DNA from: an uncultured Eubacterium sp.
GTDB lineage: Bacteria > Bacillota > Clostridia > Lachnospirales > Lachnospiraceae
NCBI GenBank assembly: GCA_945920185.1
Contig: CAMEJP010000003.1
Location: 1-64,000, forward strand
Direction: 5' to 3'
DNA: 64,000 nucleotides
This document shows positions 10,494 through 45,251 of the stretch, in pieces. The first letter of the stretch is position 1. Each line of letters begins with the position of its first letter. The translations under genes were made by a program, and so were the position numbers. Under the pieces are notes generated by a model that searched no databases, was not told where the DNA came from, and saw nothing but the letters and a program-made list of their open reading frames with translations.

Positions 10494-11600
10494 ATGAATG
10501 TACATGACTTTTATTTTGACCTTCCGCAGGAGTTGATTGCACAGGACCCTATTGAAGACAGATCAGCTTCAAGACTGCTTGTGCTTGATAAGAATACAGG
10601 TGAGGTCGAACATAAAATTTTCAGAGATATCCTTAATTATTTAAGACCGGGAGACTGTCTTGTAATCAACAATACAAAGGTTATACCGGCAAGGCTTTAC
10701 GGAGTTAAGGAAGATACAGGAGCAGGCATAGAAGTGCTTTTGCTTAAAAGACGTGAGAATGACATATGGGAAACCTTGGTAAAACCGGGTAAAAAGGCGA
10801 AAAAAGGGACCAGACTCTCATTCGGCGACGGACTTTTAAAGGCGACGGTAGTTGATGTTGTGGACGAGGGCAACAGGCTTATTCACTTTGAGTATCAGGG
10901 CATATTTGAAGAAATTCTTGACAAGCTCGGACAGATGCCTCTTCCTCCTTATATAACGCATGAACTTAAGGATAAGAACAGATACCAGACGGTATATGCC
11001 AAAAATGAGGGCAGTGCCGCAGCACCACCGAGATCTACACTCTTTCCCTACACGACGCTCTTCCGATCTTACGAAGGTTCGGCGGCGGCTCCTACGGCGG
11101 GCTTGCATTTTACCAAAGAACTTTTGGAAGAAATTGAAAAAAAAGGTGTATCCATTGCAAGTGTTACTCTCCATGTAGGTCTTGGAACATTCAGACCCGT
11201 GAAGGTTGAGAATGTGCTCGAGCATCATATGCATTCGGAATATTATAATATAGAGCAGTCTGAAGCAGATAAGATTAATTCAGCCAAAAGAAACGGCGGA
11301 AGAATAATATGCGTGGGAACTACAAGTACGCGTACACTGGAGTCTGTTGCGGACGAAAACGGATATGTAAAGGCGTGCAGCGGCAATACGGATATATTCA
11401 TTTATCCGGGTTATAAGTTTAAAATCGTGGATAATCTTATAACAAATTTTCATTTGCCGGAATCCACGCTGGTTATGCTGGTGTCAGCACTGGCAGGCAG
11501 GGAAAATGTGCTGAATGCCTATCAGAAGGCTATTGAAGAAAAATACAGATTTTTTAGTTTTGGTGATGCTATGTTTATAACAACCAAGGAGGAAAAGTAG
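10494..11600 (+). CDS. queA: S-adenosylmethionine:tRNA ribosyltransferase-isomerase, with sequencing-adapter insertion
   Basis: QueA moves the ribosyl group of S-adenosylmethionine onto preQ1 in tRNA, the penultimate stage of queuosine synthesis. The family features are clear ([17 protein letters not shown] at the start, [39 protein letters not shown]). The ATG at 10494 is chosen because AAGGAA lies about seven bases upstream; an upstream GTG at 10473 does not fit. The frame holds 368 residues, about 22 more than usual. The excess is [15 protein letters not shown] plus a second EGSAAAP, which is translated Illumina adapter and a duplicated motif. The real gene is presumably about 346 residues. 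The sequence between about 11007 and 11094 should not be trusted, and the two halves may not be from one genome. Confidence 0.9.
11024..11069 (+). other. Illumina sequencing adapter embedded in the assembly
   Basis: These 46 bases equal the 3' 46 bases of the 58-base Illumina universal (P5-side) adapter, ending in the familiar CTCTTCCGATCT. On the plus strand they translate to [12 protein letters not shown] and on the minus strand to [15 protein letters not shown], both recognisable contaminant peptides. They are not biological sequence. Confidence 0.99.
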
Positions 11601-20519: not shown

Positions 20520-20570
20520 ATTTCCTCACATTCTGCTGTGTAAGCGAAGATAAATTTATTCTTCTTGCAT

Positions 20571-20674
20571 AACAGTATATAACAGTATAGAACTGTTGTC
20601 AACTGTTTTATACTGTTATAAATAAAAAAGTTGTTGACACGAAACTGTATCTATTGTATAGTTACAGTAGTAAC
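20571..20674. promoter_or_regulatory. divergent promoters with overlapping operator-like repeats between two YtrA modules
   Basis: Leftward promoter: TTGACA, 17 bp, TATACT on the minus strand (plus-strand complements at 20597-20602 and 20574-20579). Rightward promoter: TTGACA (20634-20639), 17 bp, TATAGT (20657-20662). The left promoter is covered by AACAGTATA at 20571-20579 and 20581-20589, facing TATACTGTT at 20609-20617. The right one carries GTTAC (20661-20665) / GTAAC (20670-20674). The different motifs suggest one operator type per regulator. Confidence 0.8.
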
Positions 20675-22464: not shown

Positions 22465-22482
22465 AATACAGGAAAAACGAAA

Positions 22483-22519
22483 GGGTTTTGCACCTTACAC
22501 GGGTGCAAAACTCTTTTTT
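22483..22519 (+). terminator. terminator of the right YtrA module
   Basis: GGGTTTTGCACC (22483-22494) pairs with GGTGCAAAACTC (22502-22513), followed by TTTTTT. Confidence 0.9.
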
Positions 22520-22528
22520 AATTCGCAC

Positions 22529-22557
22529 TTGAAAAATCAAGAGTCATTTTGTATAAT
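22529..22557 (+). promoter_or_regulatory. sigma-A promoter of tgt
   Basis: TTGAAA (22529-22534), 17 bp, TATAAT (22552-22557), a near-consensus promoter. Transcription should start about 22564, right at the first of three tandem palindromes. Confidence 0.85.
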
Positions 22558-22564
22558 AAGAATG

Positions 22565-22632
22565 TTATACTTCGTATAAATTCTCGAATGTTATACTTCG
22601 TATAAAATTCCCGAATGTTATACTTCGTATAA
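22565..22632. repeat. three tandem 15-bp palindromes in the tgt leader
   Basis: TTATACTTCGTATAA occurs three times, at 22565-22579, 22591-22605 and 22618-22632, with starts 26 and 27 bp apart. Each is a perfect 6-bp inverted repeat around TTC, and each is preceded by AATG. They fill the space between the transcription start and the tgt ribosome site (22643). They could be operators placed on about every 2.5 helical turns, or small RNA hairpins. Confidence 0.9.
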
Positions 22633-22652
22633 AATTTTTTATGGAGGAAGTT

Positions 22653-23789
22653 ATGTACAACATTCTCACTACGGACGGAAGTGCCAAGAGAGCTGAATTT
22701 AAAACTGTGCATGGAACGGTGCAGACGCCGGTATTTATGAATGTCGGTACCATAGCTGCCATAAAGGGAGCGGTGGCTACCACTGATTTGCAGGAAATAG
22801 GTACGCAGATAGAACTGTCGAACACTTATCATCTTCACGTAAGACCTGGTGATGAAGTTGTGAAAAAGCTTGGAGGACTTCATAAGTTTATGGTTTGGGA
22901 CAAGCCTATACTTACGGATTCCGGAGGGTTTCAGGTATTCTCCCTCAGTACTTTGAGAAAGATAAAGGAAGAGGGCGTGTATTTTAATTCACACGTGGAC
23001 GGCAGAAAGATATTTATGGGACCTGAGGAAAGTATGACAATACAGTCAAACCTTGCTTCTACCCTAGCCATGGCATTTGACGAGTGCCCTCCGCATCCGG
23101 CAACGAGAGAATATATGCAAAATTCCGTTGACAGAACGACGAGATGGCTTGTCCGCTGTAAGAACAAAATGCGTGAGCTTAATTCACTTCCCGACACCAT
23201 CAACAAGGAACAGATGCTTTTTGGCATCAATCAGGGAGGTACATTTTCTGATATAAGAATTGAACACGCAAAGACGATATCAGAGCTTGAACTCGACGGT
23301 TATGCACTTGGAGGACTTGCGGTCGGCGAGAGTCACGGTGAAATGTATGACATTATAGAAAAGACGGTACCGTATCTTCCTAAAAATAAGCCTACCTATC
23401 TTATGGGAGTTGGAACACCTTCAAACATACTGGAAGCGGTAGGAAGAGGAATTGACTTTTTTGACTGTGTATACCCGTCAAGAAACGGACGGCACGGTCA
23501 TGTATATACCAACAGAGGTAAAATGAACCTCTTTAACGCTCAGTTTGAAACAGATAATGAGCCGATAGAAGAGGGCTGCAAGTGTCCTGCGTGCAGAACA
23601 TACAGCAGGGCATATATCAGACATTTGCTTAAGGCTAAGGAAATGCTGGGTATGAGACTTTGTGTGCTTCACAATCTGTATTTCTACAATCACATTATGG
23701 AGGAGATAAGAAACGCGATTGATGAACATAAATATGAACAATTCAAGCAAAATAAGCTTGAAGGTTTTAAAGAATTAGGAGGAAATTAA
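22653..23789 (+). CDS. tgt: tRNA-guanine transglycosylase
   Basis: This 378-residue enzyme swaps guanine 34 of GUN-anticodon tRNAs for preQ1 (bacterial type), leading to queuosine. The active-site features are present: DSGGFQVFSLS, the nucleophile region DFFDCVYPSRNGRHG, and the zinc site CKCPACRTYSRAYIRHLL...LHNLYFYNH. The ATG at 22653 has GGAGG five bases upstream; the ATG at 22641 is part of that ribosome site. The first step partner queA is at 10494 in this window (if both halves belong together). yajC follows directly, as in many bacteria. Confidence 0.97.
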   Translation: MYNILTTDGSAKRAEFKTVHGTVQTPVFMNVGTIAAIKGAVATTDLQEIGTQIELSNTYHLHVRPGDEVVKKLGGLHKFMVWDKPILTDSGGFQVFSLSTLRKIKEEGVYFNSHVDGRKIFMGPEESMTIQSNLASTLAMAFDECPPHPATREYMQNSVDRTTRWLVRCKNKMRELNSLPDTINKEQMLFGINQGGTFSDIRIEHAKTISELELDGYALGGLAVGESHGEMYDIIEKTVPYLPKNKPTYLMGVGTPSNILEAVGRGIDFFDCVYPSRNGRHGHVYTNRGKMNLFNAQFETDNEPIEEGCKCPACRTYSRAYIRHLLKAKEMLGMRLCVLHNLYFYNHIMEEIRNAIDEHKYEQFKQNKLEGFKELGGN

Positions 23790-44234: not shown

Positions 44235-45251
44235 ATGGCTAAAAGGACACAGAAAAAACTTAAAAAAGAAGTAAAATATATATTGGCAGCAGCAGGAGTG
44301 GCTTTGCTTGCAGGAGTTATCGTATTGCTTGTAAGTCTTGTGCCGAAAAAGGAGACGAAATCAGAACCTACAACTTCGCCGTATCTGTCTGACAAAGAGG
44401 TTCAGGATATATTATCTGCATCGGATAAAACCGAGTTTAACATGAATGATTTTAAGATACCTCAGGGCGAACAGATAATAGTTACCACAAACGGAGGAAG
44501 CGGTAACGGACTCATATATTCTTCAAGCAATGAAGCCGTGGTTATCATTGACAGCGACGGAACAGTGACGGCGGTGGGCGAGGGAATTGCTTCCATAACC
44601 GTTACGGACGGAAACAGGTCTGATTCCATTGTTGTTGAAGTCACGGCTGACGTTGATGATCCGGGTGAAATTGACCTTCCGATATACAGTGAAGCCGTAA
44701 AGGATGATAACACTTCAGGTGGAAATCAGGGTGGAAGCTCGCAGAGCGGCAGTCAGGAAAGTACATCGCAGAGCGGCATTCAGGAAAGTACATCGCATGG
44801 CGGAAATCAAGGTGGAAGCTCGCAGGGCGGCAGTCAGGAAAGCAACAGTCAGAAGGAAACACAGAGCGCTTATCAGCCTGAAACAGGCACTCCTTCAACT
44901 CCTTCCGGGAATAAAGATGCCCTTACGAGTGAGGACCTTTACGGAAGACTTGAAGCCTTCGGATTTTCAAAGAAGGTAGCAAATGCATTTGTATATGAGT
45001 CTGACGGCGTTTATCTTGGTCAGATAATATTGGAAAGCAAATGTGTCCATATATATTCAAAAAGTGACAGTGATGAGTATAACAGAGCTGTTCTTGAGGT
45101 GCTTAAACTTATTACTCCTACGGGATATGACAATGTGATGAGCATTTACAGGAATGCTTCTTCAGATAAAGCCGTATCGGTGGACGGAAAGAAAATACAG
45201 ATTATAGTCGGAAAAAATGATGTTCACAAGCAATTAATTGTATATAATTAG
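44235..45251 (+). CDS. membrane-anchored protein with bacterial Ig-like (BIG2) domain, unknown function
   Basis: This 338-residue protein has a basic head, one membrane helix (about 15-36), then a BIG2 domain (about 65-140: VTTNGGSGNGLIYSSSNEAVVIIDSDGTVTAVGEG is the usual pattern). A Gly/Ser/Gln-rich linker (about 160-220) follows, with short repeats of the type GGNQGGSSQSGSQEST. A final domain (about 230-338) is not recognised. The linker is encoded by near-direct repeats of 27-33 bases between 44716 and 44850, a site for length variation. It precedes two further unknown membrane genes and cdaA. Confidence 0.8.
   Translation: MAKRTQKKLKKEVKYILAAAGVALLAGVIVLLVSLVPKKETKSEPTTSPYLSDKEVQDILSASDKTEFNMNDFKIPQGEQIIVTTNGGSGNGLIYSSSNEAVVIIDSDGTVTAVGEGIASITVTDGNRSDSIVVEVTADVDDPGEIDLPIYSEAVKDDNTSGGNQGGSSQSGSQESTSQSGIQESTSHGGNQGGSSQGGSQESNSQKETQSAYQPETGTPSTPSGNKDALTSEDLYGRLEAFGFSKKVANAFVYESDGVYLGQIILESKCVHIYSKSDSDEYNRAVLEVLKLITPTGYDNVMSIYRNASSDKAVSVDGKKIQIIVGKNDVHKQLIVYN
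44716..44850 (+). repeat. in-frame short repeats encoding a Gly/Ser/Gln linker
   Basis: Near-repeated blocks such as GGTGGAAGCTCGCAG and GGCAGTCAGGAAAG recur inside the 44235 gene and encode GGSSQ and SQES units. Likely to vary in number between strains. Confidence 0.7.

Follow-up and report, generated by a model that had tools for sequence, protein, structure and literature searches.

Three tandem palindromes in the tgt leader of an uncultured Eubacterium sp. look like a local duplication

The tgt gene of an uncultured Eubacterium sp. carries three exact copies of the palindrome TTATACTTCGTATAA in tandem between its promoter and its ribosome site, as the first-pass annotation of the window (the whole stretch of 64,000 nucleotides that was analysed) had described. 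The units are real and were seen nowhere else in the sequences searched, and they therefore look like a local tandem duplication and not like a shared regulatory switch. The reading that we hold with moderate confidence is that a palindromic segment of the leader was duplicated in tandem in this particular lineage, and that any effect is exerted in cis via RNA structure; at most, the array looks like an addition of structure to the start of the tgt mRNA. The features of the locus are as follows.

22480-22516, + strand: inverted repeat with TTTTTT behind it, which probably terminates the upstream GntR/ABC operon and sets it apart from tgt (arms 22480-22494 and 22502-22516, 93% complementary; T run read directly)
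22529-22557, + strand: sigma-70/sigma-A type promoter TTGAAA-N17-TATAAT, 11/12 (promoter scan; predicted +1 at G22564)
22560-22636, + strand: tandem array of unit GAATGTTATACTTCGTATAAAATTCCC, 2.9 copies, 26/27 spacing (Tandem Repeats Finder score 140; repeat search)
22565-22579, no strand assigned: palindrome 1, TTATAC-TTC-GTATAA (exact match)
22591-22605, no strand assigned: palindrome 2, with wider arms GAAT..ATTC at 22586-22610 and one mismatch (exact match; inverted repeat with 11-bp arms)
22618-22632, no strand assigned: palindrome 3, closest to the ribosome site (exact match)
22643-22647, + strand: Shine-Dalgarno sequence GGAGG (read directly)
22653-23789, + strand: tgt, tRNA guanosine(34) transglycosylase (TIGR00430, 487 bits; PF01702)

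Exact matching in the window gave steps of 26 and then 27 bp between successive copies of TTATACTTCGTATAA, in agreement with the 26-27 bp claimed earlier. The copies are the cores of a wider repeated unit, GAATGTTATACTTCGTATAAAATTCCC. This unit, too, is palindromic, though imperfectly, and its arms are 11 bp long (GAAT-G-TTATAC-TTC-GTATAA-A-ATTC), so that pairing between adjacent units across the joints is also possible. Tandem Repeats Finder reported this one array, with a period of 27 and 96% matches, and such head-to-tail units of about 10-60 bp and high identity are those of a minisatellite. All 20 core bases are invariant across the three copies, and the full units differ solely at the joint between palindromes (ATTCTC or AAATTCCC). 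Exact cores and differences restricted to the joints fit a recent duplication; the invariance of the core bases may be a hint of selection or may reflect mere recency. Single palindromes are ordinary in this genome: 1.59 Mb of its sequence contain 94 inverted repeats in which 11-bp arms, with no more than one mismatch, flank a loop of 3 bases. It is the exact triplication, not the lone palindrome, that goes beyond chance: the match count of the window was reached in 0 of 100 shuffles, which bears out the earlier remark that such regularity is not expected by chance. Sixty-three arrays scoring at least 60 were found in 1.59 Mb, 14 of them classed as non-coding, and three non-coding arrays score above 140; the tgt array is masked in this coding/non-coding table by a spurious antisense ORF. 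Elsewhere in the window, positions 44739-44842 hold a tandem repeat of the 27-bp unit TCGCAGAGCGGCAGTCAGGAAAGTACA, with 3.9 copies and 75% matches.

The terminator-like hairpin at 22480-22516 closes the upstream ABC operon, and the leader thus belongs to tgt, which is followed by yajC. From the position of the promoter, transcription would start at about G22564, one base 5' of palindrome 1, and the earlier placing of the array at the predicted transcription start was accordingly retained. A promoter like TTGAAA-N16-18-TATACT (within two mismatches) is present in 34 of 108 tgt leaders including this one, with 17 exact matches. In relatives across the Lachnospiraceae, TTGAAA-N17-TATACT is often followed by TGTAAT (for example in leaders L035, L042, L045 and L066), and the non-consensus C of the -10 element is present in most of their tgt promoters. 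What is common to the relatives is the tgt promoter, and neither the repeat unit nor excess leader structure. An origin of the unit as a copy of the conserved -10 sequence in the relatives' tgt promoters (TATACTTGTAAT) was dropped from consideration, because the unit aligned to their leaders no better than shuffled units did (p 0.35).

The unit is absent from about 107 other distinct tgt leaders of relatives, a set that comprises leaders from outside the genus of this organism and in which the closest Tgt is 83% identical; the search of relatives' leaders proposed in the first-pass annotation thus came back empty at that distance. No array was found in 298 other genomes of the family, where a search for the 20-mer with up to two mismatches gave five isolated matches, each with one or two mismatches. 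Viral contigs yielded none with two spaced half-site pairs, phages gave no meaningful match (one weak match of 36 bases, E 0.2), and there were no plasmid matches. A few other tgt leaders do have tandem arrays of unrelated sequence (among them L006/L040 with a score of 95, L020 with 67 and L059 with 61), as would be expected from sporadic slippage. The L006/L040 array, from Anaerocolumna aminovalerica, lies at about 2907-2981 of L040, and has a period of about 13-14 or 27 bp and an unrelated sequence.

On the duplication reading, the 5' end of the tgt leader would at first have had one short palindromic stretch; two tandem duplications in this lineage would then have produced a minisatellite with three units of 26-27 bp, located between +1 and the ribosome site. 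In the tgt mRNA the array would make up the first ~70 nt, and could fold either into one long rod, with units 1 and 3 paired and the hairpin of unit 2 enclosed by them, or into three small hairpins. Such a structured 5' end might slow 5'-end-dependent decay and modestly tune access to GGAGG. The predicted folding energies of the single units are -4.1, -4.7 and -2.3 kcal/mol, the value of -4.7 belonging to unit 2 (22586-22611). Together the three units prefer the rod, at -16.7 kcal/mol (z -3.6, better than 200 of 200 shuffles). The chain of RNA hairpins suggested earlier is therefore feasible in structural terms, in that each unit is predicted to fold by itself, but the units in combination favour a single rod. 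For the leader from +1 up to, but not including, the start codon, z is -2.3, about 97% of shuffles having a less stable fold. The predicted rod at 22564-22637 has an energy of -15.8 kcal/mol, and a rival predicted fold with the Shine-Dalgarno region would free the first bases of the mRNA. When the calculation was begun further downstream, so that fewer units were included, the predicted pairing and accessibility of the Shine-Dalgarno sequence shifted only modestly as the leader was shortened from three units to one. A repeated palindrome produces such a fold automatically, and the fold is therefore not independent evidence of function. A general tendency of tgt leaders towards structure was not supported, the relatives' mean z being -0.18 (p 0.38 against shuffles).

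The first-pass annotation had also offered an operator with multiple sites, bound by a repressor that might be queuosine-related or of another kind. A dimeric repressor would bind TTATAC-N3-GTATAA at three sites immediately downstream of +1 and block RNA polymerase. The half sites are symmetric, 6 bp long and exactly repeated, and the sites span +1 to about +69, a normal location for a roadblock repressor. We nevertheless consider this reading unlikely, as the support does not extend beyond the symmetry and placing. No other exact copy of the unit exists in the 2.09 Mb of the organism's own genome, and a search with one mismatch added a single isolated copy. TTATAC-N3-GTATAA with up to one mismatch occurs 13 times per strand, compared with 25 for the reversed control, and together with the lone one-mismatch copy this leaves no regulon visible. 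The whole-genome search proposed earlier for the unit thus revealed neither enrichment nor a second array. For a regulator using this site, tgt would be the only target in evidence, and the regulator's own gene would have no such site; the scattered one-mismatch places, not above control, disclosed no autoregulated regulator and no target sharing the site. Nothing is conserved in the relatives' leaders at the distances compared. Nor does the array resemble REP-type dispersed palindromes, which have many intergenic copies, since it occupies one place in the genome. The centre spacing of 26/27 bp, about 2.5 helical turns, turns adjacent sites towards nearly opposite sides of the DNA and disfavours repressor binding on the same face. 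The adjacent GntR regulators have an intergenic palindrome of their own, ACTGTATCTATTGTATAGTTACAGT, which is built differently, and these PmtR-like neighbours were rejected as binders of the array because the palindromes of their intergenic region are of another kind. That region, 20560-20668, is flanked by two divergent operons, each with a PmtR-like GntR regulator and ABC genes, and contains palindromes such as ACTGTATCTATTGTATAGTTACAGT together with repeated AACAGTATA; these are probably operators of the GntR regulators themselves.

The array could also be a minisatellite that is neutral and leaves tgt unaffected. Its restriction to this lineage, its lack of conservation and the unrelated arrays in other tgt leaders agree with neutrality, but a leader with so much predicted pairing beside the ribosome site would hardly be entirely inert, and the position of the array coincides exactly with +1; complete neutrality is accordingly regarded as doubtful. 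Some form of dedicated tgt switch, whether a multi-site operator for a queuosine-responsive regulator or an RNA that alternates between a rod and a hairpin chain, with or without translation of a peptide MLYFV, is thought very unlikely. The peptide derives from three tandem mini-ORFs, AUG UUA UAC UUC GUA UAA, one in every unit (starting at 22562, 22588 and 22615), through which tgt might respond to how well the Tyr codon UAC is decoded; the tRNA reading that codon is a substrate of Tgt. None of the mini-ORFs is preceded by a Shine-Dalgarno sequence, however, the first AUG is no further downstream than +1, and the peptide is dictated by the palindrome. Leader-peptide sensing was also rejected on the relatives' short leader ORFs, in which NAY codons are not enriched (13.2% against 14.6% in shuffled sequences), and we give this reading almost no credence. 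Finally, an assembly artefact is highly improbable. An Illumina adapter lies inside queA on the same contig, showing that the assembly of the contig is not clean, but the units differ at their joints, the whole 77-bp array fits within one short read, and no adapter is near it. The draft genome contains at least two adapter remnants: the one in queA, at 11024-11069 (...ACACTCTTTCCCTACACGACGCTCTTCCGATCT), is in frame, and a second copy is at positions 36-48 of contig C67. The flanks of the queA adapter encode EGSAAAP twice in different codons, so that this join looks chimeric.

The literature searched yielded no report of tandem palindromes in the leader of tgt and no described operator for this gene. 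Targets of preQ1 riboswitches named in a review are queCDEF, queT and yhhQ (PMC11625349). The tgt array resembles these riboswitches in being in the leader of a queuosine-pathway gene, but differs in having no Rfam match: the preQ1-I covariance model (RF00522) matched neither the tgt leader nor the genome, and Rfam gave only chance matches, all below the gathering score. Intergenic minisatellites (VNTRs) of bacteria are similar in that they also consist of a few near-identical head-to-tail units at a single genomic place and are lineage-restricted; the tgt unit differs from them in being a palindrome and in being placed from +1 inside a leader. If functional, the array would represent an unusual dedicated control of tgt, and the number of units would be a simple handle on queuosine levels. 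The main lesson is that even a striking pattern, when seen in one genome, can have arisen by local duplication; among the relatives compared, the nearest of which has a Tgt 83% identical, shared use was not apparent.

Stem-loops at the 5' terminus, of the ompA type, reportedly stabilise mRNA (Emory et al. 1992, listed among the references of PMC2777011). The predicted rod would be similar in that its pairing starts one base past the predicted +1, whereas the array has three repeated units with weak, A-U-rich predicted stems and is not conserved. The ACTTCGTATA portion of the unit is presumably also present in an arm of loxP. loxP has 13-bp arms and an 8-bp spacer, in contrast to the 6-bp arms around 3 bases of the tgt palindrome, and the match is probably due to chance.
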